DNA of 64,000 bases from Desulfuromusa sp. (GTDB lineage Bacteria > Desulfobacterota > Desulfuromonadia > Desulfuromonadales > Geopsychrobacteraceae): assembly GCA_027858895.1 (NCBI GenBank), contig JAQIBX010000129.1:1-64000 (forward strand), in the 5' to 3' direction. Positions 2,616 to 46,300 of the stretch are shown here, piece after piece. Position numbers and translations under genes: made by a program. The notes under the pieces were generated by a model, which did no database searches, was not told where the DNA came from, and saw only the letters and a program-made list of their open reading frames with translations. The first letter of the stretch is position 1; every line of letters starts with the position of its first letter.

Positions 2616-2941
2616 AGTGGCTTACCAGAACGTCTCGGTCGCCGCCTGTTCATCAGCAACAATTTCTTCATCCCTTCAGGGTAAAACGTAAGCACTTTTT
2701 CCATAAGGGCTTTGAGCTCTTGCAGGAATGGATAGCGAGGATTAAACGCATAAACACGGGTGCGTCCAACTTTTTTGCTATAGACAACACCACCGTTTTC
2801 CAGCTTTTCAAGTTGTTTTTGAACTGGGGCGAGGCCGACCTCAAAAAATCTTGCAATCTCACGGGCATACCCCTCATCACGGGCAATCAGATAAATCATG
2901 ACTCGTTCACAATTGAGTGATCCCAATATTGATTCTAGCAT
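2612..2941 (-). CDS. Small winged-helix DNA-binding protein, putative antitoxin/repressor
   Basis: A 109-residue protein with an ArsR/MarR-like winged helix-turn-helix: residues 20-60 contain an EIARFFEVGLAPVQKQLEKLE recognition-helix-like segment, then the wing GVVYSKKVGRTRVYAFNPR. The C-terminus is very basic (RRRPRR). The start at 2941 has a strong GGAGGT ribosome site. It is the first gene of a two-gene unit with the nucleotidyltransferase-like protein, overlapping by ATGA-type 4 bases. It most likely represses its own promoter: AGGTCA hexamers lie just upstream. No metal-binding Cys cluster typical of metal-sensing ArsR proteins is present. Confidence 0.7.
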   Translation of the reverse strand: MLESILGSLNCERVMIYLIARDEGYAREIARFFEVGLAPVQKQLEKLENGGVVYSKKVGRTRVYAFNPRYPFLQELKALMEKVLTFYPEGMKKLLLMNRRRPRRSGKPL

Positions 2942-2945
2942 TATA

Positions 2946-2984
2946 GACCTCCATAGTAGGTCATATTACCTTAAATAGAGGTCA
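2946..2984. promoter_or_regulatory. Candidate operator repeats upstream of the winged-helix/NTase pair
   Basis: GACCT at 2946-2950 and AGGTC at 2958-2962 form a 5-bp inverted repeat. AGGTCA occurs at 2958-2963 and again at 2979-2984, 21 bp apart, which places both on the same helix face. The first arm overlaps the ribosome binding site. This spacing suits autoregulation by the encoded winged-helix protein, but binding is inference. Confidence 0.4.
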
Positions 2985-3036
2985 GTTTATCTTTTAGTAA
3001 CGATCCAAGCAAGAAAAAATTCTAACCAGGCAACAA

Positions 3037-4506
3037 TTAAAGATACTCCGCATACTTAGGTTTGCAACCGCCCCCTTCGGCAGGGACAAGTTGCATTTCA
3101 TTTGTGATGGACGGGATTCCGTCTTCAGGATGATGCGTCACATAGATGATCTGCGTCCCCTCTTTTCTGCCAATATAATCGATAAGTTTTAACACCATCG
3201 CCCTGTTGATCTCATCGAGCCCCTGGCAGGGCTCATCCAGAATCAGCAGTCTGGGTTGTTTAATCATTGCTCTGGCCAGTAGGACCATCCGCTGTTCTCC
3301 GAAGGATAACCTGCGAAAAGATACGTTACGTTGCTGTTCCATGTGGATCATCTCAAGCCATTTCAGGGCAATCTCTTCCTGTTGCTTTGAATACTTACTA
3401 TACACCCCGATGGAGTCAAAAAACCCTGAAATGATAACCATTCTGGCCGTCCCGCCGACCCGGTAATTCTGCTGCAGAGCTGTCGATATATAGCCGATCT
3501 GTTTTTTGATATCCCAGACACTCTCGCCCGAGCCTTTTTTTCGGCCAAACAAACGAATGTCATTGCCGTAGGCCTGGGTGTTGTCACCGGTAATAAGGCT
3601 TAACAGGGTTGATTTACCCGAACCATTTGGCCCGATGACCTGCCAGTGCTGATCATGTTTCACGGTCCAATTCAGCTTATTCAGGACAATATTTCCATCA
3701 TATTTGACCGTGACATCTCTCATTTCAATCAACGGAACCTCAAACACGACTGCAGAGAGATCTGCCTGATCAGCTGCGCCGGGAAATTGCAGGGCGGGTA
3801 AGTAATGAAAAGAATGAAACCGCAACAGCGCCTTGGATTGCAAAATTTCAGCTCTGGGTCCTGAGATAAAAAGGGCACAGTCCCTGATATAGGCAATGTG
3901 GGTTATTTCGGGAATGATTTCGCTGAACCGGTTCAAGAGCAATACGATCTGGATGCCGGTTTCTATACAGCCGGTAATCAGCTTTTTCAGAACATCACAG
4001 GACTCAAGATCAAGACCGTCGAATGGTTCATCAAGGACCAATATTTCCGGTTCTTTGATGATTGTTCTACAGATAATCGCTTTACGCATTTCTCCAGTCG
4101 ATAAGGTTTTTATTCCGTGGTCGAGAAGTTTTGTGAATTTCAGCTGCCGTGCAAGAACATGCAGCTGCGGCTCTTTTTCAGGATCGCCATTAAGGATAAA
4201 TTTCCGCACTGTTATGCCTATATCTATCCGGCCTCCCATAAAGTCAGAATCATCATTCAGTCTTTCACGTTCCAGTATTTCATTGACCTTCTCGAAAGAC
4301 ACATAATCGACCCTCGCGGGGATCTGTGCTTCTCCTGATATGATCTTCAAGTCATTGCACAACAATTTCCCCAGGGCAGATTTTCCCGAACCGTTTGCTC
4401 CAACAACAGCCCAGTGTTCACCTGTCTTGAATTTGAGATTTATTTTTCTTAATAATACCTTGTCACTAATCTGCGCAGTAACATTGCTTAAAGTCATTCC
4501 AGCCAA
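3037..4506 (-). CDS. modF: Tandem ABC ATPase, ModF/PhrA-like
   Basis: A 489-residue soluble protein with two ABC ATPase domains in one chain. Domain 1 (about residues 5-220) has Walker A GANGSGKSALGK, signature LSTGEMRKA and Walker B ILVLDEPFDGLD. Domain 2 (about 255-480) has GPNGSGKSTLLS, signature LSFGEQRMVLL and LLILDEPCQGLD. This arrangement and length match ModF (formerly called a photorepair protein), linked to molybdenum uptake in some bacteria but of uncertain biochemical role. No membrane permease or molybdate-binding protein lies next to it. The linker does not look like the ABC-F ribosome-protection type. It stands alone as a transcription unit. Confidence 0.75.
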   Translation of the reverse strand: MAGMTLSNVTAQISDKVLLRKINLKFKTGEHWAVVGANGSGKSALGKLLCNDLKIISGEAQIPARVDYVSFEKVNEILERERLNDDSDFMGGRIDIGITVRKFILNGDPEKEPQLHVLARQLKFTKLLDHGIKTLSTGEMRKAIICRTIIKEPEILVLDEPFDGLDLESCDVLKKLITGCIETGIQIVLLLNRFSEIIPEITHIAYIRDCALFISGPRAEILQSKALLRFHSFHYLPALQFPGAADQADLSAVVFEVPLIEMRDVTVKYDGNIVLNKLNWTVKHDQHWQVIGPNGSGKSTLLSLITGDNTQAYGNDIRLFGRKKGSGESVWDIKKQIGYISTALQQNYRVGGTARMVIISGFFDSIGVYSKYSKQQEEIALKWLEMIHMEQQRNVSFRRLSFGEQRMVLLARAMIKQPRLLILDEPCQGLDEINRAMVLKLIDYIGRKEGTQIIYVTHHPEDGIPSITNEMQLVPAEGGGCKPKYAEYL

Positions 4507-8428: not shown

Positions 8429-10249
8429 ATGCCATTAACCGGCGAGCTTGAACACTTACCAATCGTTGATGTTATTCAGCTCATTCATTCGACCCGCAAA
8501 TCGGGAACATTGAACGTATATAGCCGTAAGGGTGAAGGGCAGTTAGTATTTAACAAAGGTTATATAGTAAGCGCAACTCATTCCAGTGAAAAACTGAAAA
8601 TTGGTAAAATTCTTCTGGAAAGTCACATCATCGGCCAGGCTGATTTAAATAAAGCTCTGGATATCCAAGAGCTCTCTGGTGATGACCGAAAACCCCTCAT
8701 CGCCACCCTGCTGGAACATTGTGGGCTGTCTAAAGATGCCGCCTTTAAGGCACTTGAAACATTGATTGAAATGACGGTTGTCGAAATGATCTGTTGGACG
8801 CGGGGTATTTTCACTCTGGATATCGACGAGATCAATGTTTCAGATGACTATCGTTATTTACCCAAGCAACTACAAACCGTCACTTTAGACACACAGATGG
8901 TTCTGATGGATGCACTGCGTATCTTTGATGAGAAAGTGCATTCAGGCGAAATTAAGCTATCCGACGAACCGCTGGAAGAAAATCCGCTTACAAAACTTGA
9001 AAACATCAGAGAACCGGAACAACTAGAGGATATTGAAACAGAGGAAATTCTGGTTTCAGAAGACCTTCTTGGTCTGGCCGATCTGGACAAATTAGAGCGA
9101 AAGAAACCGTATGTTTTTAAGGGATTAGAAGCTTTTGATCCGGCTGAAATCCATCGCCAGGTAATTGACAAAATACTTACTGATATCCCGGATGAGGGCA
9201 AAGAAAAACTGGTCAGTTTTTTATCCAGCATATCGACAAATTATCATCTAGATGATGGATCTGTCGCTTCTGCAACAAAGTCTCAAGCGGTCATTTTTTA
9301 TACCTGTGATGAGTTTCTGCAGCATGCCATCATGACTGTTTGTAAAAAAGAAGGAATCCTTGTTTTTGTCACAGCCGATCGACATGAATTGGATAATTTG
9401 ATCGACAGAGCTCTCTTTAAATACCTTGAACCTATCCTGGTTTTTGGTAGCCCTGTTGCTGATACCGAGGGTTTTAGTAAGGCAGAAATTATTGATGTCC
9501 GTTCGCTAAAGATGGCGCAATATCCACAGATTTCTATTATTCAGTTGGCTTCACCGCTTGATTTTACCTTTTCACTGCAATCACTCAATGACGGAGCACG
9601 GGCTGTTTTTCCCATGCCTTATTTTTCTGAGCGTGAAGAAACATTTTCTGAGGATATGATTAACTTCCTCAATACCTTCCAGGTTTATATTCGTGGTTGC
9701 TTCAATGAAGAACGTCGGCAACAATTTGCAAAACTGCGTAACAGCCTGTCTGGATTGAGGTTACTACGTAAGGCTCCGGATATATCGTTATTGGCTTTAC
9801 AGTTTGTCAGTGAACTCTTTGAACGCTCGCTGACATTGATTGTCGACAAATCGAGCATGATTGCGGAACGCAGTGTTGGAATAATGTCAGATAAAGACAA
9901 TGGTCCCGCAGCCCCGATGAAGTTTCGCATTCCGATCCGTAAAGATTCTGTTTTTAATGACATTATCAAATCGGGAGATAGTTTTTTTGGAAAATCGGAA
10001 GACAGTACTTTTGATGACCTGATCTATCCAGAAATTGGCGCTCCAACAGACGCAACGTTCTTGCTGCTCCCCCTCAAAAGTAATGACCGGGTCATTACGA
10101 TCACCTATGCAGATTTTGGTGATCGTCCAGCAAGTCAGGTTTCACTCGATTTTCTTGAGTTTTTTGTTGGGCAGGCTGGGATAGCTATGGAAAACGCTTT
10201 ATTCCGCAAACAACTTGATAGTTCCAATCAGCCAGAAGTTATGCGTTAG
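8429..10249 (+). CDS. DUF4388 domain protein with GAF-like C-terminus
   Basis: A 606-residue cytoplasmic protein. Residues 1-100 match DUF4388 (PatA-like N-terminal): LTGELEHLPIVDVIQLIHSTRKSGTL, then GQLVFNKGYIVSA. This domain is common in delta-proteobacterial signalling and motility proteins. Residues 150-250 are acidic and low in structure. The C-terminal 160 residues (about 435-600) resemble a GAF domain, ending in FLEFFVGQAGIAMENALFRK. It has a good AGGAAGG site 8 bases before the ATG and is followed 9 bases later by a PilT-like ATPase, so both are co-transcribed. A role in regulating type IV pilus retraction or polar signalling is inferred from that pairing only. Confidence 0.75.
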   Translation: MPLTGELEHLPIVDVIQLIHSTRKSGTLNVYSRKGEGQLVFNKGYIVSATHSSEKLKIGKILLESHIIGQADLNKALDIQELSGDDRKPLIATLLEHCGLSKDAAFKALETLIEMTVVEMICWTRGIFTLDIDEINVSDDYRYLPKQLQTVTLDTQMVLMDALRIFDEKVHSGEIKLSDEPLEENPLTKLENIREPEQLEDIETEEILVSEDLLGLADLDKLERKKPYVFKGLEAFDPAEIHRQVIDKILTDIPDEGKEKLVSFLSSISTNYHLDDGSVASATKSQAVIFYTCDEFLQHAIMTVCKKEGILVFVTADRHELDNLIDRALFKYLEPILVFGSPVADTEGFSKAEIIDVRSLKMAQYPQISIIQLASPLDFTFSLQSLNDGARAVFPMPYFSEREETFSEDMINFLNTFQVYIRGCFNEERRQQFAKLRNSLSGLRLLRKAPDISLLALQFVSELFERSLTLIVDKSSMIAERSVGIMSDKDNGPAAPMKFRIPIRKDSVFNDIIKSGDSFFGKSEDSTFDDLIYPEIGAPTDATFLLLPLKSNDRVITITYADFGDRPASQVSLDFLEFFVGQAGIAMENALFRKQLDSSNQPEVMR

Positions 10250-10258
10250 GATATATTT

Positions 10259-11329
10259 ATGGATAGTAAAACTCTCAATCAAATTCTGGAAATTGCCTTT
10301 GCGAAGCGGGTTTCCGATGTTCATTTTGAAGTCGACAACCCTCCCTTCTTCCGCGCCCATGGACAACTTTTACGTTCTAAATTAGCCAGCTTGAAACCTG
10401 CAGATACTGAGTTTATTGCTGCAACGATCATGAAAAACAATAAACGCGATCTCCCTGCAGATTTCACTGAGTTCGATGCTTCTTATTCCCTGGCTAACAG
10501 TGGTCGCTTTCGGGTCAGTATTTTTAAACAACGTGGCAATATTGGTATTGTCATGCGTGTTATTCCGCCCGAAATTGGCGATTTCAAAAAACTAAAACTG
10601 CCGGCGGTTCTCTCAGAAATAGTTAAAGCGCCAAACGGTCTCGTGTTAGTCACTGGGCCAACTGGAAATGGCAAATCGACGACCCTTGCATCAATGATCA
10701 ATTACATCAATGATAAGTACGCATACAATATTATTACCATTGAAGACCCGATAGAGTTCCTGTTCGCATCGATAAAAAGTTGTATTATCCAGCGTGAAGT
10801 TGGCATAGACACGACAGATTTTGGCTCTGCATTGAAGGCTTCCTTGAGAATGGATCCAGATGTCATCATGGTTGGAGAATTAAGGGATCTGGAAACTATA
10901 GATGCCTGCATAAAAGCATCTGAAACCGGGCATCTGGTCTTTTCAACTCTGCACACCCAGAATGCGGCTTCAACAATAAATCGGATTATTGGACATTACC
11001 CCCCTGATTCGCAGAAGATTGTCCGGCAACGACTGGCAGATATTCTGGTTGCAACAATTTCTTTAAGGCTGGTCGAAGATAAGGAGGGTGAAAACCTTAT
11101 CCCAGTTGTCGAGGTTATGCGCACAACGACGACGATTCAGGCCTGCATCCGAGATGGAAACCTCAATGAGATAGAAGGCCATATCGAAAAAGGGGCGGCT
11201 CAATACCAGATGCAGTCAATGGATCAACACTTGATCCAACTTTGCAACAAAGGACTGATCTCGGTAAGAGAAGCGAAGCGGGTTTCTAATTCCATGGATT
11301 TGGAGCGAAAGCTGACTTTCACTCAATAG
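10259..11329 (+). CDS. PilT/PilU-type pilus retraction ATPase
   Basis: A 356-residue hexameric ATPase of the PilT family, which drives depolymerisation of type IV pili. The N-terminal PAS-like half includes SDVHFEVDNPPFFRAHG. The Walker A motif is GPTGNGKST at residues 133-141 (usually GPTGSGKST). IEDPIEF is the Asp box, DPDVIMVGELRD the Walker B region, and GHLVFSTLHTQNA the His box. The C-terminal part lacks the classic AIRNLIREGK-type segment of PilT, so PilU or another paralogue is possible. It is 9 bases downstream of the DUF4388 gene and upstream of a terminator at 11332-11366. Confidence 0.85.
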   Translation: MDSKTLNQILEIAFAKRVSDVHFEVDNPPFFRAHGQLLRSKLASLKPADTEFIAATIMKNNKRDLPADFTEFDASYSLANSGRFRVSIFKQRGNIGIVMRVIPPEIGDFKKLKLPAVLSEIVKAPNGLVLVTGPTGNGKSTTLASMINYINDKYAYNIITIEDPIEFLFASIKSCIIQREVGIDTTDFGSALKASLRMDPDVIMVGELRDLETIDACIKASETGHLVFSTLHTQNAASTINRIIGHYPPDSQKIVRQRLADILVATISLRLVEDKEGENLIPVVEVMRTTTTIQACIRDGNLNEIEGHIEKGAAQYQMQSMDQHLIQLCNKGLISVREAKRVSNSMDLERKLTFTQ

Positions 11330-11387: not shown

Positions 11388-12431
11388 TTACAGCTCTTTT
11401 TCTTTGTTGATGAGAGCAACAACCCCATTGTACATATCCTGAACACATTCAACTTCTGTCACGCCCAACCGCCTTTTATTGCTGATATCAAAAATACCAC
11501 TCTCACTTTCCGAATGTTCACCGTGAATACCGCGTATCTGTAGGTGATGTGAATCGGCAATGTTCTTAAAAGCAGGCATGTCGGCAGCGAGTTTAGGTAA
11601 GCGGATATGCACACTGGCCCGCATGGCCGTTCCCAGATTGGTCGGACAACTGGTCACATACCCGAGCCGCTGATCAAACATGAAAGTAACAGTTTTTTCG
11701 ATTTCCTTAACCGCAGTGACCAAGCGAGTGAATACGGCTTCAATATCACCACCTTGCTGCATAGAAATAATCCGCAACTGGTCTTCTTCGTTCACCCAAA
11801 CCAGAAACGTTTTCTCCCGGTTATGAAAAATTCCCCGACCTTCAGGCCAGTCGCGGTTTAACCCAGCGGCATCAAGAAATCGATCTCCGGCTTTGAATAA
11901 AAAATGATCGGCAACCAATTGATCTCGAACTGTTTCGTCCATCCCCAATAAAGGATAATAAGTTCCTGCCAGTTCTCCACTTAAGTTGCATAGAGATTTG
12001 GCGACCTGAGATTCAATTGTATTTCTCTGTTCTCTAGAGAGAGCAGGACCGAGCGGCACCTCAGCAACATTACGCCCTACTCTGATTCTGGTGGAGAGAA
12101 TATACAGACCGTCGGGATCTGGATTTGGAGCAGACAGAGTTTTCATATTTAAATTGCTGCGATGTATATCGGTCTTGGTAAAACCATGATAATCGGCAAT
12201 AATCGGGTCGAAAAGAGCGCTAAAAAGGGTATACGATTCAGCATCTCCGGCATAAATGCCAATACTGCTATCCTGATTTACAACGCCCGAATTGATTGCC
12301 TGAGCAAAAGTAAAACCGCTCCCGGTAATCTTGTCTTTCAACTGTTCAAAAGCTGGTTCAGACAAATGTCGGTACAACAGCGAAGAGCAATTCGGTTTAA
12401 ACTCAGGAAAAGTTGAACCATCCCATCTCAT
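11388..12431 (-). CDS. Arginine kinase-like phosphagen kinase (animal type)
   Basis: Phosphagen kinases reversibly move phosphate between ATP and a guanidino compound such as arginine, buffering energy. The 347-residue protein aligns by eye along the whole length with invertebrate arginine kinases: the N-terminal helical domain with SGVVNQDSSIGIYAGDAESY, then STRIRVGR, GTYYPLLGMD, GRGIFHNREKTFLVWVNEED, RIISMQQGGD, the reactive Cys in SCPTNLGTAMRASVHIRLPKL and GEHSESESG with the substrate-loop Glu. The Gly of the guanidino-specificity DSG segment is Ser here. The N-domain and length separate it from McsB protein-arginine kinase. I chose ATG at 12431 because GGAAGG lies 10 bases upstream; a GTG at 12440 has no room for a ribosome site. 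It follows a tiny membrane protein gene. Confidence 0.92.
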   Translation of the reverse strand: MRWDGSTFPEFKPNCSSLLYRHLSEPAFEQLKDKITGSGFTFAQAINSGVVNQDSSIGIYAGDAESYTLFSALFDPIIADYHGFTKTDIHRSNLNMKTLSAPNPDPDGLYILSTRIRVGRNVAEVPLGPALSREQRNTIESQVAKSLCNLSGELAGTYYPLLGMDETVRDQLVADHFLFKAGDRFLDAAGLNRDWPEGRGIFHNREKTFLVWVNEEDQLRIISMQQGGDIEAVFTRLVTAVKEIEKTVTFMFDQRLGYVTSCPTNLGTAMRASVHIRLPKLAADMPAFKNIADSHHLQIRGIHGEHSESESGIFDISNKRRLGVTEVECVQDMYNGVVALINKEKEL

Positions 12432-12436
12432 TGCAG

Positions 12437-12604
12437 TCACACACCTTCCTTGTCAGAATTTATTTTCTCTTTGGAGTCAGATTGACTTTCTTCTGTTGTT
12501 TGTTTCGGTTTTTTTTTGGCCTTGTTCACCATCCACAAAATTGCGAAAGTGATCACCAGGGTAAGAAATATAAACAAAATATCAGCAAAACGAATCGTTT
12601 CCAT
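12437..12604 (-). CDS. Small single-span membrane protein, 55 aa
   Basis: Not long enough for many gene finders. The reading frame starts at ATG 12604 after a strong GGAGG site and ends at TGA 12437-12439. Residues 8-26 are hydrophobic (ILFIFLTLVITFAILWMV), followed by a basic and then highly polar tail (KAKKKPKQTTEESQSDSKEK), so an N-out/C-in or small anchor topology is likely. Its stop lies 5 bases before the arginine kinase ATG at 12431, and the kinase ribosome site is inside its last codons, so the two are translationally coupled. A role as membrane partner of the kinase is inference. Confidence 0.7.
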   Translation of the reverse strand: METIRFADILFIFLTLVITFAILWMVNKAKKKPKQTTEESQSDSKEKINSDKEGV

Positions 12605-12778: not shown

Positions 12779-12801
12779 AATGGCTGGGGCGACAGGGATC
12801 G
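12779..12801. repeat. Duplicated 3' end of tRNA-Gln (23-bp direct repeat)
   Basis: The 23 bases here are identical to 12937-12959, which cover the CCA end, acceptor strand and T-loop of the intact tRNA-Gln. The copy sits 158 bases downstream of the tRNA (in tRNA orientation). The spacer holds two small hairpins (GCGGACA/TGTCCGC and CTGAC/GTCAG) and no gene. Such 3' tRNA duplications are typical of integrase attachment sites, but no integrase gene is near. Confidence 0.7.
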
Positions 12802-12938
12802 TCCACTTTGTCACAGACATCATGTCGGTTCCTGCGTAGACTCCCCTACACTCACTGTCGCGGACATCCTGTCCGCTTTTCTGACATTAAGTCAGCGTTC
12901 GTTTCGCTTCGATCCCTTTCGAGATTCGTTTATTTTAA

Positions 12939-33202: not shown

Positions 33203-36200
33203 TTAACTCAGCAGTTTGATAGAAAAATCTTTCAGCTGGTAGATGATTTTCCCGTCCACCGAGAGGTAACCATCCGCTTTCAGTGACCTAAGTTCGTCAT
33301 CGACCGCAGTAATTAATGCTTCAACCAGGACCTTTTTATTGGCTGGAACAATCTGACCACGATAATTCCAGCTGTGTTTTTCGCCGAGCACAACCGTTTC
33401 GAACTGTGAATTAGTGTCTACTCCCCACTTTTTGGCAGCAACGACCCTTAACAGTTGCAGGAACGATTCCAAACCAAGGGAACCGGGGCAGACAGGATCT
33501 TGATAAAAATGGGCCTTAAAAAACCACTCTTCGGGATCAACCATTTTACTGCCACGAATATAACCCAAACGATGAGGTCCGCCTTGCGGGGCAAATACCT
33601 CGATTTCATCAATCATACACAGTTTGGTGTCTGGATAGGGCAATTTTTGAGGATAAGCAAACTGCTCGGAGTTGGCAAGCTCCGCATCACTTACCAAATA
33701 GAGTGAAGCTCCCTGTACCCCAACCTGTTGCGCCAGTGACTCTTTGGAGAAGAAACCAAAAACGGTGTCACCACTGTAAACCGGTCCAGAGGAATCATTA
33801 ATTTCAAAATCGTAACCCTGAATGATCATCCCGCCACTGCTGGCAATCCGGGTGATTTTCACATTGGTGGTTAAGGTTCCAGATTGCGCCGTCACCGGTT
33901 TATGCTGAACGGCATGACCATCCAGATTGCGGAAGGAAAGATCGGTCTCACTGGTTAACGCCGAACCGAGATACGCGGCCAGCCAGCCGCAAGGTTGCAG
34001 GCCGATTTCAAGCAGAACGCTGAAAGGCATATTGGTCTGCCGATTGGCGTCAAAGTACCAGGCATCGGTTGGCACATCATATTCAGCTTCAACCGTCACC
34101 CCTTCAACCAGCTTCCATGGTTCACCGTTGATGGTAACAATCCGGTCCAGAAACTGAAACGGCGGACCCGGCAACCGGGCAATTTTACGCCCCTGATCAA
34201 ATATCCGATACGGTTCACCGAAGGCTTCAGATGGATTACCGATCGCGAAAGCGGTGATTCGATCAGTATCATAAAGTATTTGTTTCGGAGACAACTCTGG
34301 TTTTTGGAAACTTTGTGGCCGCCAGTGCGCTTCAACCTTTTCCCTATCCAACCCAGCCAGACGGACCGACATGTCGGGGATTTCTACGATCGGGTGGCCA
34401 TCAGCAAACATGAGGGCATCGACGATGGCATAGGGCTCTGGACGGTAGCCAAGCTCCTTGATGCTGACCTGATATGTTACGGTTCTGGTCGTCGCTATCA
34501 CCTGTCCACGACACTTCAGGCCGCTGGCAATTCCTGGAACCGGTTCACACCAGGTCTGACCTTCCTCACCTATCCAGCCCATCCGCAACAAATAGATGCG
34601 CAGAGTATGCATACAGCATTCGTACATCAGGGTACCAGGCATCACCTGATCATCAATAAAATGACAGGTCAAAAACCATGCATCCGGTTGAATATCCATC
34701 TCAGCAGTAATCTGCCCAATGCCGTAACGGCCGCCCTGCGGATCAAGTTCAATGACCCGATCAACCAGCTTCAATTGCCCTCCAGGTAGAGTGTACGGCT
34801 TGAAGGGCAAAGCAGAGAAATGCTTGCCGAAGCAGGTTTGTAAATCTCCCGCATAGAGAGCATTAATTTGATCGTCACGATAAGATTCGGTCTGCATCGG
34901 CACAAGTTCCTGCCAAGCGTGCGGCAGAATCCCTGGTTGCGGCATTAAATCGAGTTTGGTATGGATAATCCCTTGCCCTGCAGCAAGATCTTCCGCAGTA
35001 AAAAATCCGGCACAACCATGACGCATCGAGAGTAGCGGTTCATCATTCACTGTTCCCTCAAAATTAAAACGGAACAGATAAGTTTGATCCTGACGGAAAA
35101 ATTCTTCAATTTTTATATCGTAATGAATCGTATCTCCGACAACCGGCAAGCCACGATGGAAGGTCACAACGGCATCGAGGAGACGGTAGACAGCCTTACC
35201 TTTACTGATAAAATCGATCCCCAGGTAACCCGAGAGAAATAGATCCGCCTGCCCTGCTTCGACAGCAATGCAGGTGGGGATACGACCGCCGTCCAGATAC
35301 CAGCGCTCAGCGGTGACATCATGTTCCGTGACAACCCGACCATGGGTCATGGAACGTGGAACACCTTCGACCCCGAGGATTCGATCAACCAGCATCAGCG
35401 GACCATCAGGAAGGCGCACCCGGGTTGGATACGTATCAACTTCGGCAAAATCAGTACCGAGCATCTTCTCTACCGAACCAATAGCAAACTCCATACACAT
35501 GGATCGATCAAAAGCAATCGATCGATGCGGAGCAGCAAGATCGGTCACAATGGGGCTAGCTGTCACTGTCGAAACCGCACGGCTTGGAATTTTAGCCACA
35601 GATTGAAATGCAGGAATTTTCTCACCATTGTCAACAATCTGTTGCAACAGCGACGTTTGCAGAGAAATGTTCTCTGCCAAGGCCTGCCCAATCGTTTTAG
35701 AAAAACCAAGATAGGCTTCATGCGCAGCAACACCTGCGGATAACGTCTGATTAAATTGAGCGAGAATTGGATCAGAGATATCGGTATTTAGCGCTTGTTC
35801 CGATACCTCTGGTGGAACAGTCTTTTCTTTATCATCTACCTTAACTTGTTCATCAACATTCATTGTTTCAAAATCTAAATTATGTTTTTCAATTATTTTA
35901 ACATTGAAAGATTTTCCGCCAATAGTTGTGTAAATGCGATGCTCATGACGATCCGCTTGTAGAAATTCTTCAGGTAAAGGTGGATACAGTTTGTTGAGAT
36001 CTACCGGAATACGTTCGGCAAGACAGCTTCCAAGCAAACGAAGTAGTTGCGTGGTGGCATCCAGACCTGGGGCACACACTGAACGAGTCAGGTGGGATTG
36101 ATCTGACAGAATGCTGTTGATCATCCGACTACAGGACGTTCCGGGACCAACTTCGAGAAAAATCCGTGCACCATCAGCATACAACTGTTCAATCACCTGC

Positions 36201-39200
36201 GGATAATCGATAGTATCAAGTGCCTGAGCAAGGATAACATCAGCGGCATTACTGGAAGTCAGCGGGTATTTTTTTCCCAGCGCACAGCTGTAAAAATCGA
36301 TACCAGATGGTGGGGTCACACTAAAAAGGTGCAGTTGACGATAAGCATCAGAAACCGCTTTTGTCACTTCACAATGAACTGTCGTCACCCCTTGCAAGGG
36401 GATGAAATGGCAGCCGAGCTCCGCAACCAGTTTTTCAATCTGGGAGCGGTTTCCACCGACAACACATTCCCGTCGGGTATTGATAATCAACAGGTACGCC
36501 TGCTTCTTCCCTTGAAGATACTGTCGGACCTGTTCAGCAGGGAGATTCACCATTCCCAGAATCCAATCAACCTGCTGGTTAGACTTCAGTCCCCAAATCC
36601 GTTTTGCTGCCCGGCATTCTCCCGCGAGTTCATTAGTAAACAAGGGCGACTTTTCAAGTCGCTGCAGCATCCCGTCGCGATCCTTCCAGGCACCGGAAGA
36701 AAAAAGTCCGGCCGACTCACCCAAACTATAACCACTAATCATCTGTGGTTTAATTCCGAAATGCCTTACCAGATCACTCAAAGCTGTGCATTGGGCAACA
36801 TGAGAGATCACCAGCGCATTATGATTGTCCTGAATCGACTCCGACAATTCTGCTTTCCAGAAATGTTCGGGGAGATATTGATCCGCCAGATATTTATTGT
36901 TCTGCTCCTGCTGCAGGTAGATCTCAGGCCAGTGTGCCGACAGCTCACGTCCCATCCCAGCAAAATGGTTACCAGAACCGGGAAACACAAAAGCAACTTT
37001 ACTTTTTGCGCCTAAGGGTTTTGCAGCATAAAAAATACGATCACGGATGGCAGGAATAAGTTGCAGCTCTCCGTTAACACCAATAGATTGGTGAGGACTT
37101 TCTGCAATCAGCTGTTGTGCATAATCAAGCTGGGTGGCGAAGGTCTTATAATCGTCCGCTATGAGACTCAGGCAATATTGCTGTTCAGGGTCGAGCGGAT
37201 TTTGCACAATCCACAAACGTGCGAGAGTATCGATCGGCTGATCGGCAAATTTATAAGAAAATTGCCGCAACGTGTCTATTTTAGCAAGCAGCTTCTCAGG
37301 GGTAGCGGCTTCAATAACAAACAACCCTTCCGGTAACGCTCCTAGAGGGCGGAAGGATGATGTAGATTTCCCTGGGGTTGATGTGCCCACATATTCTTCC
37401 AAAATGACTTGCGAGCAAGACCCATCACTGCCAATTCCACTGACCAGTGCTCGTCGCAACCCTTCAGCGCGATTGCTCAACCAGTATTGAGCTGCCGCTG
37501 GAGCAATAAATTTTCGCTTATCACGAACCCATTCTGGACTTAAAACGTGCAAATTCCGCAACGGTGGTAGAATTTTATGCTGCAGACAGAGTGCTGTTTT
37601 GACCAGCGAAGCCAGACCGGCAGCAGCTCCAGCATGACCGATATCTGCCTTTACGCTGCCAATTTTACAGCTATTGCTGTTTACTTTAAGACCAATCACA
37701 GACCCAAGGACTTGTGCCTCCAGGCGATCAACAGCCGGAACGCCACAGCCTTCAGCCTCAAGATAAGAGATTGATTCTGGAGGGATATTGCCATTTTGGC
37801 AGGCTAGCTCTACAGACTTAGCATATATTTCTTGTTTGGGGATGATGCTATCAATTTGCCCACCGATTGCCGTGCCGGTGCCTTTGATAACAGCATAGAT
37901 ACGATCACCATCCTGCCGGGCATCTTCCAGCCGCTTTAAGACCAGGGCCGCGGCACCTTCACCAATCAAGCTACCAGCGCTATCTTTATCAAAAGGGCAC
38001 CCTGCCCCATTAGTAGAAAAAGACTTATTACTGTGACGGCTGAGAACCGCTCGCAGATCTCCAGCCAGGTCAACTGCACCAACAATAGCACGGTTAATCG
38101 ACCCTTCCTGAAGGGAGTGGATCGCCACTTCAAGAGCTCTGAGACCTGAATTTTCCTCGCTTGAAAGAGTAAAGCTGGGGCCACCAATACGAAATTCTTT
38201 GGCAATCCGACTGGCAACGACGCTGCCGAGAGCTCCCATGGTACGATTCGCTGTCAGCGCCGGCCCCGCTGCTTCGCGCAATTCGTCCAGCCAGGCCGAA
38301 AACTGTCGCTCGTCCAAGTTCAGGCCCAACTCATCAGCCCATTGACGGGCGTATCTTTGCAGCCCCCAGCGAAAACTGAAATTTGTCGCATTGAGATCGA
38401 GACCGCTGCCGATATAGACACCGGCAAACAAGAGATCTTTATCGGTCAGCTGTGCATCCTTCAGTGCCGCTGCTGCAACTTTCAACATCAGCAACTGGCG
38501 TGGCAGCATCTCTTCCTGTTCTTTCGGCGGAATACGAAATTCACCTGGGTTGGAACATACTTCCGGGACGAAAAAACCCCGGAAATTGACCTTATCCAGC
38601 CCTGATTGTTGATACCAACGACTCCCCTGTATTCCCCACCAGTTGGTCGGAGTTGCCGATTTAACCTCATCCAGCGCTCCGAATACGCGGTGCTGGAACT
38701 GTTCCAGATTTTCCCAGGGACCAAATTGAGCACCCATACCGACAATGGCAACGGGCTCGTTTCTCTGACTGGACGATGGGTGCAATCTTACCGGGCTCTT
38801 CTGTTTTTTTTCAGGAACCCATTCCTCCAGGAGTAGATGAGCATTGATTCCACCAAAGCCGAAGGCACTCACAGCAGCGCGACGCGGTTGTCCACCTTTT
38901 CTGCTATCCCAGTGCTCGGTTTGATTGAGGATCCGAAAAGGGCTTTTATCCAGAGCAATACCAGTTGCGGGATCGGTAAAATTAACCATCGGCGGCAAAG
39001 TCTGCTTGTTCATAGCCAGTATGGTTTTAATCATTGCAGCAGACCCAGCTGCAGTCAGCAAATGACCAATGTTTGCCTTAACCGAACCAATCACACATTG
39101 CCCAGGCCGCCAGCCGCTTTCTTGCCAAAGCTGTTGCAGACTAGAAAATTCGACCGCATCGCCGACCGGTGTACCGGTCGCGTGACATTCGATCAGATCG

Positions 39201-40165
39201 ACATCGGCGGGTGACCATCGCGCCTGTTGATAAGCTGCACGCATCGCTCGCAATTGCCCTTCAGCGGCAGGGGCCAGCAGATTTCCACCCAGGTCATTTG
39301 ACAAACCAATACCGCGGATAACGGCATGGATATGATCCCCATCCCGAAGCGCATCCTCAGTGCGTTTAAGCAGGAGCAGCCCACATCCCTCGCCAACAAC
39401 AAGACCGTTACCATGCTGATCAAAGGGGGAACAAATCCCGCTTGGGGAAAGAGCGCGTAATTGTGAAAATCCCATCTGGGTATAGAGTGAGTCGGGTCGT
39501 GACAATCCACCGGCAAGCATGGCATCAGCTCGACCAGATTTCAGTTCATCCACAGCAAGTTTGATGGCATAGAGAGATGAAGCGCAAGCAGCATCAACGG
39601 TAAAGCAAGTCCCTTCGAATCCCAGGACCTTGGCCAACAGACCCGCTGGAAGACCCGCGACATAATGATTGATCGGTGCAATCGTTGAATCATCAAGCGA
39701 TAGCTCTTGCTCGGACAGTTTCTCCATAAAGGTTCGGCCAAGATAATGTCTTGCCAATGCTGATGCTTTCTCACTTGGCAGCGCCAGATTGCCAATAATA
39801 ATGCCGGCACGACTGCGATTAACTTTCTCCGTAGCAACGGTGGATAAAGTTTGTTGGCCAACGCGCAGCAACAGCCGAAACATGGGATCAAGGCTGGCAA
39901 GAAAGTCGGGATCAATAACCAGTCCGGGGATGTGTGCCGTATCGATTTCATCATCGAGAAAACAGGCTTTTTGAGAATAGACTTTATCGGGGGAACCTAC
40001 CTGCGGATCAAAAACATCTTCGACTGGAAGTAACCAGCGGCCCTGTGGTGGTTGGCGCGAGGTATTTACGTTAGCAACAATATTATCCCAGAAACGATCA
40101 AGGGTCGGAGAATTAGGGAACATTCCACCGACCCCGACAATCGCAACAGATTTTTCAGACAACAT
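33203..40165 (-). CDS. pfaC: PfaC-type polyunsaturated fatty acid synthase with built-in PfaB-like acyltransferase
   Basis: A 2320-residue megasynthase. Domains: ketosynthase 1-450 (Cys194, His328, His368); chain-length-factor-like KS 470-930, where the active Cys is replaced by Glu near 671 (LSSEENSG); acyltransferase 1055-1390 (FPGSGNHFAG, nucleophile S1147 in GYSLGES) resembling PfaB; then four hotdog modules from about 1560 to 2320 forming two double-hotdog dehydratases. Catalytic His is seen in CHFIDDQVMPG (1835) and AHFYQDPVCPG (near 2220), while the preceding module of each pair lacks it. In Shewanella and relatives the acyltransferase is the separate PfaB, so here pfaB is fused into pfaC. 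It has no ACP and depends on PfaA for carriers. The start has GAGA 11 bases upstream. Confidence 0.93.
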   Translation of the reverse strand: MLSEKSVAIVGVGGMFPNSPTLDRFWDNIVANVNTSRQPPQGRWLLPVEDVFDPQVGSPDKVYSQKACFLDDEIDTAHIPGLVIDPDFLASLDPMFRLLLRVGQQTLSTVATEKVNRSRAGIIIGNLALPSEKASALARHYLGRTFMEKLSEQELSLDDSTIAPINHYVAGLPAGLLAKVLGFEGTCFTVDAACASSLYAIKLAVDELKSGRADAMLAGGLSRPDSLYTQMGFSQLRALSPSGICSPFDQHGNGLVVGEGCGLLLLKRTEDALRDGDHIHAVIRGIGLSNDLGGNLLAPAAEGQLRAMRAAYQQARWSPADVDLIECHATGTPVGDAVEFSSLQQLWQESGWRPGQCVIGSVKANIGHLLTAAGSAAMIKTILAMNKQTLPPMVNFTDPATGIALDKSPFRILNQTEHWDSRKGGQPRRAAVSAFGFGGINAHLLLEEWVPEKKQKSPVRLHPSSSQRNEPVAIVGMGAQFGPWENLEQFQHRVFGALDEVKSATPTNWWGIQGSRWYQQSGLDKVNFRGFFVPEVCSNPGEFRIPPKEQEEMLPRQLLMLKVAAAALKDAQLTDKDLLFAGVYIGSGLDLNATNFSFRWGLQRYARQWADELGLNLDERQFSAWLDELREAAGPALTANRTMGALGSVVASRIAKEFRIGGPSFTLSSEENSGLRALEVAIHSLQEGSINRAIVGAVDLAGDLRAVLSRHSNKSFSTNGAGCPFDKDSAGSLIGEGAAALVLKRLEDARQDGDRIYAVIKGTGTAIGGQIDSIIPKQEIYAKSVELACQNGNIPPESISYLEAEGCGVPAVDRLEAQVLGSVIGLKVNSNSCKIGSVKADIGHAGAAAGLASLVKTALCLQHKILPPLRNLHVLSPEWVRDKRKFIAPAAAQYWLSNRAEGLRRALVSGIGSDGSCSQVILEEYVGTSTPGKSTSSFRPLGALPEGLFVIEAATPEKLLAKIDTLRQFSYKFADQPIDTLARLWIVQNPLDPEQQYCLSLIADDYKTFATQLDYAQQLIAESPHQSIGVNGELQLIPAIRDRIFYAAKPLGAKSKVAFVFPGSGNHFAGMGRELSAHWPEIYLQQEQNNKYLADQYLPEHFWKAELSESIQDNHNALVISHVAQCTALSDLVRHFGIKPQMISGYSLGESAGLFSSGAWKDRDGMLQRLEKSPLFTNELAGECRAAKRIWGLKSNQQVDWILGMVNLPAEQVRQYLQGKKQAYLLIINTRRECVVGGNRSQIEKLVAELGCHFIPLQGVTTVHCEVTKAVSDAYRQLHLFSVTPPSGIDFYSCALGKKYPLTSSNAADVILAQALDTIDYPQVIEQLYADGARIFLEVGPGTSCSRMINSILSDQSHLTRSVCAPGLDATTQLLRLLGSCLAERIPVDLNKLYPPLPEEFLQADRHEHRIYTTIGGKSFNVKIIEKHNLDFETMNVDEQVKVDDKEKTVPPEVSEQALNTDISDPILAQFNQTLSAGVAAHEAYLGFSKTIGQALAENISLQTSLLQQIVDNGEKIPAFQSVAKIPSRAVSTVTASPIVTDLAAPHRSIAFDRSMCMEFAIGSVEKMLGTDFAEVDTYPTRVRLPDGPLMLVDRILGVEGVPRSMTHGRVVTEHDVTAERWYLDGGRIPTCIAVEAGQADLFLSGYLGIDFISKGKAVYRLLDAVVTFHRGLPVVGDTIHYDIKIEEFFRQDQTYLFRFNFEGTVNDEPLLSMRHGCAGFFTAEDLAAGQGIIHTKLDLMPQPGILPHAWQELVPMQTESYRDDQINALYAGDLQTCFGKHFSALPFKPYTLPGGQLKLVDRVIELDPQGGRYGIGQITAEMDIQPDAWFLTCHFIDDQVMPGTLMYECCMHTLRIYLLRMGWIGEEGQTWCEPVPGIASGLKCRGQVIATTRTVTYQVSIKELGYRPEPYAIVDALMFADGHPIVEIPDMSVRLAGLDREKVEAHWRPQSFQKPELSPKQILYDTDRITAFAIGNPSEAFGEPYRIFDQGRKIARLPGPPFQFLDRIVTINGEPWKLVEGVTVEAEYDVPTDAWYFDANRQTNMPFSVLLEIGLQPCGWLAAYLGSALTSETDLSFRNLDGHAVQHKPVTAQSGTLTTNVKITRIASSGGMIIQGYDFEINDSSGPVYSGDTVFGFFSKESLAQQVGVQGASLYLVSDAELANSEQFAYPQKLPYPDTKLCMIDEIEVFAPQGGPHRLGYIRGSKMVDPEEWFFKAHFYQDPVCPGSLGLESFLQLLRVVAAKKWGVDTNSQFETVVLGEKHSWNYRGQIVPANKKVLVEALITAVDDELRSLKADGYLSVDGKIIYQLKDFSIKLLS

Positions 40166-40365: not shown

Positions 40366-43300
40366 TCAAGCAACTCCGATCAACTTATTACGCTGAAACG
40401 TCGCATTCAAGGAGGCATCGATAACACATTCATAGTTTTCTATCCGCGCAACCAATAGATCATTAAGTGGATCAATGAAGTCGATATTGGCTATGGCCCG
40501 GTTATGGTTTTGTTGGGTCAATTGAACTCGTATTTCAACGCCACTTTCAGGAAATTTCGGTTGATATTGCCGGTAACGTTCGACAAAAACCGGTAAAGAC
40601 CCCGACTTGTATTGTTCAAAACTCCACAAAATCAACATTTGAAAGCTGCAGTCCAACGCCAGAGGATCAGCAAGCCAGGAGTTACGTAACGGTTGCTCAA
40701 TCCACCGACTTGGCAAAGGCGCCGGATTAACCAGAGCGCTGATACCCTCAATGGAGGAGCCAATAACTTCACGGATGCCGTGAAAATCTGCGCCATGAAA
40801 TAAACGTTCCGGTTGATAAATCTCACTTCTTGAAAATGGATATTCGGGCAAGGTCAACTTTTCAGCTTTCATTTTCCGCTCTGGCAAACGGGAAGCAAGA
40901 ACAATTTTTGCCCGGGCATGTGCGATCTGCCGACCCTGGTTATCAACCCCGGAAAGTTCAACCGGAACAACATGAACGCCATCCCCTTTAATAGCTTTGC
41001 CCGTCAGCACCTGCAGAGTAACGCCCTGCTGCGGTTCAAGGGTTACCCCTTTAAGGATGCGCAGATCATTGAACCCCTGGAATTTAAGACCCGGATTATT
41101 GTGGAGTGCACCGTGAGCCAACCATTCAACAACAATTGCTGTTGGCAGGACGGCTTTACCATCCATGACATGCGACTTTAAAAACGGATACTGTGCAATA
41201 TCAAGATCCAGATCGAACGCTTTGGAAACACAGATATTCTGCGGTAACTCAGCCAATTCTTCAGCTTTGGCGTCAATATCCCCTCCAGAAATGATCAATT
41301 CAACCGGTCCACCAGGAGTGGTTGAAAGCTCCTTAAGTAGATAGTCGGCCCCAGCCTGCAGATCGATCACCTCGATCCCTTCCCGTTCAAAAACCTTTTT
41401 CAGGGCCGGAGTCACCATTCCCCCATTCCAGGGTCCCCAATTCAATGAAAGGACCCGGCAACCTGGTCGCAATTCTGCTTGTTGGTCGGCTATTTTATTG
41501 AGAATTTCATTCGCTACGGCGTAGTCGACTTGTCCTATTCTGCCAAAGCGTCCGGTTGAGGAAGAGAACATCACCAGAAACTTCAGATCGTCTTCACCTA
41601 TTGCAGCAAGAAGTGCTCTAAACCCTGCAACTTTAGTCGAATAAACCTGCTCAAACTGTTCTACGGTCTTCTCTTTGATCAACTTATCTGCCAGGACCCC
41701 GGCACCATGAATCAAACCTTTGACCGGGCCATATTGTTCTCGGATTTCATCAAGAAGAGAGCTCATTGCTTGCTGATCACGTAAATCAACTGAGCGATAA
41801 ATTGCCGTTCCTCCTGATTTTAAAATCCGCTCCAAAGTTGTGCGAATTTCTCGCTCCGCCAGTATTTGTTGGTATTGGCGTGCCACATCCAACGGTTTCA
41901 AAGGAACTTCAGATTGAGCTAGCAGAGCCTTTTTTATCTCTCCTTCAACCTGGAGATCAGCTAACCATGCAGGTTCATTCTCAGGTAGTGGGGTGCGCCC
42001 CAACAGCAACAACGTTGCCTGAGTCGCAATGCTGAGTGCCACAGCAACTTCCGCCGTTACCCCTCGAGCACCACCACTAATAACAATCAGATCTCCAGAC
42101 TGAACAGGCAGATGAGGAGCAACCCCAGCAAGCGGCTCTGAAACCAACTCAAGCGTATTCAACCCCTGAGTGCTGATCCCAATTTCAACCGGGCTCACTT
42201 TGAATATTTCAGCAACAATCGCGGTCGCGGTCGGCAGAACCTCCATCCCCATCGCCAGATCAATTGCTTTACAATGGATTGCCGGCCACTCCAAGGCAGC
42301 TGTTTTACTCAATCCAGCCAAGCCACCAGAAAGTGAATCATTGATCAATTTGGTTGCACCAAGGCCAAAATAACCATTTATTCGTGAAACGGTTGCGAAA
42401 AAAGCACCACCACGCTCTGCGCTATTGTGCAATGCTGGTTCCACTTTCTGCAACAATTTAAAAGCATTGCGAAGAAACAGATCATCTGCGCCCGGCAAAG
42501 GTGCAAGAATAACCAGACCAGCCAAGTTATCAGGGAGAGAAATAGAATTCAGATCCGCTAGAGAAGTTTTACGGGGAATAAGCTGGCGATCGCTTAAGTT
42601 GGAACAAAGCGCATCAGATAATGACGATCCATCATCGGTAATCCAGACTTCTGCTCCGATGGCAAAGTCAAGTTTCTTGCCCGCTCGTTTTTGCGGCAAA
42701 GAAACAGAATGCAACACTTGCCTGAGGATCTCTTTTGGCACAGCAGTTTCACCGCTGCTGGCCTTAATTTCCTTCTCTTCTGCACCGGATATGCTCGCCA
42801 GGAAATCAACAATTTGTCCAACTGTCTGCAACGTTCCAAGATGCTCCGGTTTAATTGCCGGTGTTCCTGGCAAGTGCTCCTGCAGAGCAGAGAGTATTTC
42901 TACTCGTTTAATTGAATCAATTCCCAGGTCGGTATCAAGCGCCATGTCCAGTTCCAGCATCTCGACCGGATAGCCAGTTTTCTCTGCAATAACATCGAGT
43001 AAAATAGTCGAAACCTGCTGTCGATCGACCTGTCCCAGTTGTGGCGGTTCCGCCGCAATGGTTGGGATTCGTTGCTGGGTTTCCTGGCAGAGATGATCGA
43101 CAATTTGTCCAAGAGTTTGCAGGACACCAAGATCCTCGGGACGAACTGCGGGGAGCTCTGGTAGCTGCTCCTGTAAGGCAGAAAGAATTTCAACCCGCTT
43201 GATCGAATCAATTCCCAGGTCGGTATCAAGGGCCATTTCCAGCTCCAGCATCTCGGCCGGATAACCAGTCTTTTCAGCAATCACTCCCAGTAAAGTGGAT

Positions 43301-46300
43301 GAAATAGAGTCCCGATCGGCCTGACCACTTGGTCGCGTTGCAGAAATAGTTGGGATATGCTGCTGCTCCCCCTGACAAAGATGATCGATAATTTGTGCTA
43401 GAGTTTGTAGCACTCCGAGATCCTCGGGACGAACCGCTGGAAGGTTTGGTAGCTGCTCCTGCAGAGCAGAGAGAATTTCAACCCGTTTAATTGAATCAAT
43501 TCCCAGGTCGGTATCAAGGGCCATGTTCAGTTCCAGCATCTCGACTGGGTAGCCAGTCTTTTCAGCAACGACTCCCAGCAGTACGTCTGCAACTTGATCT
43601 TGATCAGCACCGGTTGCAACTGCTGGAATAGCCATCGATCCAGGAATACCTGAATCGAGATAATCGACTATCTGCCCGAGAGTTTGCAGTGCACCCAGAT
43701 CTTCCGGACGGATAACTGGAGCGGACGGTAGTTTTTCCTGCAGAGCCGAGAGGATTTCGACCCGCTTGATCGAATCAATTCCCAAATCGGTATCCAGCGC
43801 CATCTCCAGTTCCAGCATCTCGACCGGATAACCAGTTTTTTCGGCAATAATCTCAAGCAAAAGAGGTGCGACACTTTCGTTGTTCGTAGCAGCGACAGGT
43901 TCCTGTGTTGGCTCTAAAACACTCAGGTCTGGCTGCACACTAACTGGTTCAGTAGCAGGAGATAGTATTGGTGCTGGCGGTACAACCATAGATGAACCCG
44001 TTGCGCCCTGGAGTAACATACGCTGTTGATCAACCAGTTGCATAAATGACTGGGTTGCCGTTTGCTGCCCTTCTAAAAATTGTTGATGCAGTTTAGATGT
44101 CTGTTCCTGTAGAGTTTGCAAAGCTTGCATACTCTGCTGCGTGATCCGCAAGGCCTCCTGCAAATTGCCGGTTTCGACCGAAGCTGCGACCGACTGGTTG
44201 GGTATTGATTGAGCTGTGCTCTTGGCAGTTACAACATCTTGTGTTGATTGAGGCACAGAGGTAACATTCTTCACCTTTAAAGGTGGTCGTTTTTCAGGTT
44301 TTTTATAGTAGTTAGCACCACAGATAGAAACGGAGATCCCCTTCTTTTTCTGCCCCGATTGCTGCTGTGTGGCGGCAAATCCTTCGTCCCATAGCGATAA
44401 TGCTATCGGTTGACCAAGAACAGACAGTTTCGCCAACATTCGTGCCAGATCATTAATTGCTGAACGCTTACCGTTAGAAGAATCAAGAGCCACAGCCTGG
44501 TATTCCCGGCCAGCAAGGATCGCCTTAACCATACTGGTCAAGCGCCCACCAGGTCCGGCTTCAACAAATATCCGATGGCCTGCCTGATACATAGTTTCGA
44601 TTTCAGTAACAAAATCGACCGGGCTGGCTAATTGCTCCGCCAGTAATTTCCTGACTGCAACAGCAGAATCTGGATAGCTTGCACCGGTGGTGTTGGAAAA
44701 GACATTTTTCCGCGGGTCTTTAAAGTTAACGCTCTGCAGTTTTTCAGCAAATGGCTGTGCTGCTGAGGCAATAAGTTGACTGTGAAAAGCAGCCGCTACC
44801 GCCAGCTGTTTGTTGCTGATTCCTCTTTGATTCAGCAACTCAATCGCTTTTTCAATTTCAGCAGTGGCACCTGACAAAACAGCTTGCTCTGGCGTATTGC
44901 GGTTGGCTAATACCAGATCGAGAGCTTCTTCAGCCAGAAAGTCTTCAACTTGTTTGAGGGGTGCCGAAACCGCTACCATCGAACCTCGATCACCTTCACC
45001 GGCAGCCATCAACTCACCACGCAAGCGGGAAAGATTATGCAAATCTTCAGTGGTAAAAACTTCAGCAGCGCAGAGAGCAACTAACTCGCCATAACTATGC
45101 CCAGCGACAGCATCCGCCTCAACACCAAATCCGGCTAGAACCCGGCCAGCCGCTAAACTGACAGCGCCAAGAGCGGGCTGAGCAACCTCTGTCGCCTGTA
45201 ATTCAGCGACTGCATTCTGTTTTGCTTCCGGGATAAACATAGGACGGGGATAGACCATATTGGTCAGACTTCCGCTCGCCAATTCAGCGTTTAAACCAAA
45301 AGCCTGATCGGCATCCTGTAAAGTTGCCAGGAAGGTTGGAAACTGGAGGGCAAGATCTTTCAACATCCCCGGATATTGAGCTCCCTGACCCGGGAAAAGC
45401 ATGGCAATGGTGCCACAAGATTCACCCGCCGCGTAGTAAATGCCGTCGGGTGTTTCCCAGAGCTGTTGGCCCTGGTTTTTCTCCAGCATAGCGAGAGCTT
45501 TTTTCAATTGGTCAGGTCGATCCGTTTGACCTTTTTCAGCGACTAAAATAAGGCGCTTCGGATCTGTCGGTTTAAACTGACTCCGTTTTTCGGCAGCAGC
45601 CAAGCGAAATTGAGACCAGTCCCCTTCGCTTGAAAAATTGCGCACTGTGTTCACAAGTTCAATATCATTAGCGGCAGAAAATGGGATAATCTGGACATTG
45701 CCATCCCAATCGACAACCTGTTTCTCTGACTGATACTCTTCCAGTAGACAATGAAAATTACTGCCGCCGAAACCAAGAGCACTAACTCCGGCACGACGTG
45801 GGTGGTCAACCTTTTGTATCCATGGACAAGTTTCGGTATTGACATAGAAAGGGGTATCAGCAGCGATAAGACTTTCTGGCGGTTTTTCTACCTTAATCGT
45901 TGCCGGTAAAACCTTATGATAGAGTGCCAAAGTCGCTTTAATCAGACCAGCCACACCGGCTGCCGCTTTGGTATGACCAATCTGTGATTTGATTGATCCC
46001 AGGGCACACCAAGGTTTTTCCGCAACGCCAAATACTTCATGTAATGCATTAACTTCAATCGCATCGCCGACTCTGGTTCCGGTGCCATGACCTTCGATCA
46101 GCTCAATTGTATCGGGGGTGACATTGCCTTGCTCATAAGCCCTTAACAGCGCTTTCGCCTGACCTTTGGCATTTGGTTCATAAATTGCGGAGCCGCGCCC
46201 ATCACTCGACGCACCGATCCCCTTGATGACGGCATAAATGTTATCCCCATCCCGCTCGGCATCCTCCAGCCGCTTCAGAACCACTATACCTAAACCCTCA

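Follow-up and report, generated by a model that had tools for sequence, protein, structure and literature searches.

Arginine kinases (AKs) are best known from invertebrates, in which the energy of ATP is stored as phosphoarginine. Bacterial members of the group have reportedly been characterised by Bragg (2012) and Suzuki (2013). According to a review in the available literature (PMC6429109), which treats their origin as debated, bacterial AKs are found in Sulfurovum, Moritella sp. PE36, Desulfotalea psychrophila, and Myxococcus xanthus. A search of the open literature turned up no mention of an AK in Desulfuromusa. Here, we describe such a gene from a 64-kb window, meaning the whole stretch of 64,000 nucleotides that was analysed. 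The Desulfuromusa AK is real and genus-wide, and bacterial AKs as such are already known; with this finding, their known range takes in an entire genus of marine anaerobes that reduce sulfur and metals.

The gene and its domains

The AK gene occupies positions 11388..12431 on the minus strand and encodes 347 amino acids in an intact open reading frame, with an ATG at 12431 and a stop codon ending at 11388. This start is favoured because the alignments of relatives begin at residue 1 there, and an in-frame GTG at 12440, upstream of the ATG, is the less likely choice. The product combines an N-terminal PF02807 domain (residues 14-78, E 6e-26) with a C-terminal PF00217 domain (residues 139-346, E 3e-79), both well over the Pfam cut-offs and together the pair by which AK membership was judged. 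The top match in the PDB is the two-domain AK of the sea anemone Anthopleura, whose E value of 1.8e-250 excludes a chance match, and at 51-59% sequence identity to solved AKs the fold is beyond doubt. Judged from sequence, both the fold and the catalytic residues are those of an AK. The first-pass annotation had proposed a full-length animal-type AK in a bacterium. The presence of both Pfam domains and the catalytic residues bears out a full-length phosphagen kinase of the AK type in this delta-type organism; the interval given was right, and the strand is the minus strand.

The source assembly (2.78 Mb, Desulfuromusa-like, 98.7% complete) encodes the AK as its sole PF00217 protein genome-wide, and thus no McsB was found in it. 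The window also holds two adjacent, very long open reading frames on the minus strand, at 33203-40165 (2320 aa) and 40366-47151 (2261 aa).

Distribution among bacteria

The AK gene is present in all 13 of the 13 other Desulfuromusa genomes. It also occurs in two near genera, where one copy is broken off at a contig end, and a third genus of the family carries a distant homologue with 36% identity. The isolate Desulfuromusa kysingii DSM 7343 possesses the gene in an identical gene order, and contamination of metagenome-assembled genomes as its source is excluded by this synteny. AK appeared only in the source genome in a phylum-wide draw of 395 genomes, a sample from which all other AK-bearing genomes were absent. 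Among 84,980 species genomes, close relatives are mostly marine Campylobacterota (60-72% identity), while scattered relatives, mostly in metagenome-assembled genomes, occur in Moritella, Psychromonas, Bacteroidota, Thermaceae, Chloroflexota, and Deferribacterota. The nearest relatives, again mainly marine Campylobacterota, reach about 70% identity, whereas animal AKs reach 51-59%.

Mobile elements were considered as carriers of AK and rejected. The phage collection yielded only McsB-like C-terminal matches, viral contigs gave no AK match, and the plasmid collection gave one distant full-length match (39%), from a ciliate endosymbiont. An AK-like gene (positions 2902-3999 of locus L138), annotated as hypothetical and located near transposases, lies on a plasmid of Candidatus Bandiella woodruffii, a member of the Rickettsiales that lives as an endosymbiont in the ciliate Euplotes.

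In many Campylobacterota (16 loci), an open reading frame of about 80 aa ends at the AK start or overlaps it by at most about 40 nt. Its core reads LLLxQCEAIIxEGL...KVxRALxIIExMxLY...F.SYC..RW. No Pfam model scores above cut-off on it, and it may be a translationally coupled partner of AK in those bacteria.

Phylogeny and origin

In two trees, whose eukaryotic rows were AKs of solved structures only, the Desulfuromusa-group AKs form a single branch (support 100/96 and 100/99) nested within a bacterial AK branch of 64 rows (97/92 and 95/80). As far as sequence comparison tells, the closest kin of the Desulfuromusa AK are bacterial AKs. The picture of an isolated animal-type oddity is not upheld, as its nearest relatives are found in a sizeable group of bacterial AKs, of which it is probably a member.

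It is unlikely that Desulfuromusa received the gene directly and recently from a marine animal, independently of the other bacterial AKs. Identity is about 70% to Campylobacterota, whereas Anthopleura reaches 57-59% and arthropods 51-55%; the 64 bacterial rows share their branch; the composition of the gene is like that of its neighbours; and the AU test disfavours a grouping of the Desulfuromusa AKs with arthropod AKs (p-AU 0.035). What such a transfer has in its favour is that trees holding the Desulfuromusa AKs with the Anthopleura domains were not rejected (p-AU 0.45 and 0.51). Nor did the tests reject a position of the Desulfuromusa branch outside the other bacterial AKs (p 0.48). The phylogeny proposed as a check thus returned the bacterial branch with the support given above, and the attempt to place the donor on the tree was abandoned, the AU tests not fixing the attachment of the animal branch. 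Of the transfer from eukaryotes that had been suggested, a direct arthropod-type donor is disfavoured, and the bacterial AK group as a whole may descend from a remote eukaryotic source. The opposite direction, in which the bacterial branch is old and animal AKs derive either from it or, together with it, from a common bacterial source, seems distinctly improbable; if true, Desulfuromusa and Campylobacterota would preserve a lineage from the donor side of the animals' phosphagen system.

Active site and predicted substrate

The AK contains the motifs SCPTNLG, NEED, and GEHSES, and all codon positions below lie on the minus strand. Numbered against the Limulus reference, which is identical to PDB 1m15, Cys262 of SCPTNLG (11646..11648) corresponds to C271 and the catalytic Glu216 of NEED (11784..11786) to E225, both as previously claimed. 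The other catalytic glutamate is also present but had been misplaced: rather than lying within HSESESG, it precedes the histidine, as Glu305 of GEHSES (11517..11519; Limulus E314). Conservation extends over the catalytic residues E225, E314, and C271, the nucleotide-binding R124, R126, R229, R280, and R309, an AK-type guanidino loop (its length, D62, S63, and Y68) together with Y89 and R193, and additionally G66 and R330. Across the 64 bacterial AKs, S63, G66, Y68, Y89, R124, R126, N223, E224, E225, D226, R229, C271, N274, R280, R309, E314, and R330 are invariant, while D62 and R193 each differ in one row; the Desulfuromusa AK carries every one of these residues. On this conservation, we strongly infer that L-arginine is the expected substrate.

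The guanidino-specificity loop, QDSSIGIY (12252..12275; Limulus 61-68), is as long as that of Limulus AK and includes the one substitution singled out beforehand, Ser56 (12264-12266) in place of Limulus Gly64. The change is real. This serine could be taken to indicate an AK-fold phosphagen kinase preferring another guanidino substrate, such as agmatine, D-arginine, taurocyamine, or other, and an animal AK preferring D-arginine has reportedly been described. We consider such a preference quite unlikely. Position 64 is glycine in 42 of the 64 bacterial AKs and S, N, C, Q, H, A, or E in the rest, differs even within the genus Desulfuromusa, and is likewise serine in domain 2 of the animal Anthopleura AK. 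In addition, a crystal structure shows the arginine carboxylate bound by the backbone amide of this position (PMC5598448). Because the site is freely variable and its contact with arginine is through the backbone only, the substitution is weak evidence about the substrate. D62, S63, Y68, Y89, R193, and E314 are all of the AK type, and the signatures of creatine and taurocyamine kinases (CK, TK) are absent, with neither a CK/TK guanidino loop nor the CK arginine at the position-89 site. The earlier view that the substitution leaves the real substrate open is therefore not sustained, and arginine is retained as the expected substrate.

Three relatives of the genus carry second phosphagen-kinase-like genes with about 40% identity to the Desulfuromusa AK; in these genes, Gly replaces the catalytic Glu225 (NEGD for NEED), and His replaces Tyr68.

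Organisation and history of the locus

The AK gene is convergent with a gene for a PilT-type ATPase (10259..11329, plus strand), which marks the insertion site and is followed outward by a gene for a DUF4388 protein (8429..10249, plus strand), linked to pilT with or without AK in the genome. In genera of the family lacking AK (four loci), the order dut-DUF493-yrdC is followed by the convergent pilT-DUF4388 pair, and the gap of about 90 to 540 nt between yrdC and pilT contains no AK. A related genus shows the order yrdC-AK-pilT. On the pilT side, little has changed in Desulfuromusa, and the opposite side is now occupied by a tRNA-Gln gene and a small membrane open reading frame. The empty yrdC-pilT site in sister genera, set against yrdC-AK-pilT in the relative, indicates that AK was gained, and the simplest reading would be a single gain at this junction followed by rearrangement. 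Loss from the AK-less genera in place of one gain is the alternative, and it was counted against the best explanation. As the codon usage and GC content of AK are ordinary in comparison with the neighbouring genes of the window, the gain was not a very recent one. No arginine-metabolism gene is fixed next to AK, and since the upstream context differs from relative to relative, the gene context offers no functional clue.

The small membrane open reading frame (12437..12604, minus strand) encodes 55 aa with a single membrane span. It is a real gene under purifying selection (dN/dS about 0.09), and its protein family (METIRFADILFIFLTLVITFAILWMVNK...) has no Pfam match above cut-off and keeps its place next to tRNA-Gln within the family. 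The open reading frame ends 5 nt ahead of the AK start, and most of the genus has retained it, which gives the pair the look of a two-gene operon and would suit a functional unit with a membrane-tethered AK. Such a unit is very unlikely, given that the open reading frame occurs in more than 10 AK-less genomes of the family, with the same tRNA-Gln adjacent in those examined, and that some relatives have AK without it. Widespread without AK, it was rejected as a partner and is regarded as an older neighbour at the locus.

A tRNA-associated repeat

Behind tRNA-Gln lies a structured element of about 160 nt (12779-12938, minus strand; fold z -3.0) whose last 23 nt match the 3' end of that tRNA exactly. 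Relatives of this repeat were detected in 47 of the 79 genomes searched from the family and order (Desulfuromonadales), and Rfam holds no family for it. Fifty copies were examined, including those at loci L181, L182, and L184-L210; some loci overlap, and a few copies are counted twice. With this proviso, 41 of the 50 sit 27-69 nt after a tRNA gene (Gln, four Ser, two Pro, Glu, Arg). Most of these tRNA-following copies begin with an inverted copy of the T arm of their own tRNA and end with a copy of the 3' end of the tRNA preceding them, the shared run having a median of 18 nt, compared with 6 nt for other tRNAs. The layout is reminiscent of either the rtT/tyrT repeats of Escherichia coli or a mini integrative element. 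Papers on related genomes list multicopy sequences. The repeat may be more novel than the AK finding.

Proposed function and comparison with known systems

The explanation that we regard as highly probable as a whole is an arginine kinase serving a phosphoarginine ATP buffer, gained ancestrally at the yrdC/pilT junction and then kept. As an arginine kinase of monomer length (ATP:L-arginine phosphotransferase, EC 2.7.3.3 type), the product would catalyse the reversible transfer of the gamma-phosphate from MgATP to the guanidino group of free L-arginine. What is established about phosphagen kinases leads us to infer that phosphoarginine would act as a quick ATP buffer in an anaerobic marine respirer whose supply of electron acceptors fluctuates. 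The gene would have entered the line leading to Desulfuromusa and its closest genera and been retained since. The locus offers a clean before-and-after view of the gain, and the cultured isolate D. kysingii DSM 7343 makes phosphagen use by an anaerobic bacterium directly testable.

A McsB-type protein-arginine kinase, tagging proteins for degradation, deserves almost no credence: the catalytic domain PF00217 is common to both enzymes and the AK scores 144 and 128 bits on the McsB models, but the curated cut-offs are 385 and 500, McsB rows lack both PF02807 and the loop, identity over the shared domain is 29%, the substrate of McsB is protein arginine, and neither mcsA nor clpC is among the AK neighbours, so that the marks by which McsB membership was judged (a curated model over cut-off, no PF02807, and mcsA/clpC context) do not fit. 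Grouping with McsB, named beforehand as the result that would speak against an AK, was tested, and the AK falls outside the McsB branch (support 100/100).

Among solved structures, the closest is the two-domain AK of Anthopleura japonicus (PDB 4rf6), which has the same fold and active site but fuses two kinase units where Desulfuromusa has one, at 57-59% identity. The AK of Limulus polyphemus (PDB 1m15), at 51% identity, is alike in every catalytic or substrate-loop residue compared, except for position 64, where its Gly is Ser in Desulfuromusa, and a conservative change at 65. The comparison with known bacterial AKs covers Sulfurovum and Moritella sequences; AKs of the genus Sulfurovum (about 69% identity) and that of Moritella PE36 (about 61%) share the bacterial branch to which the Desulfuromusa AK belongs.
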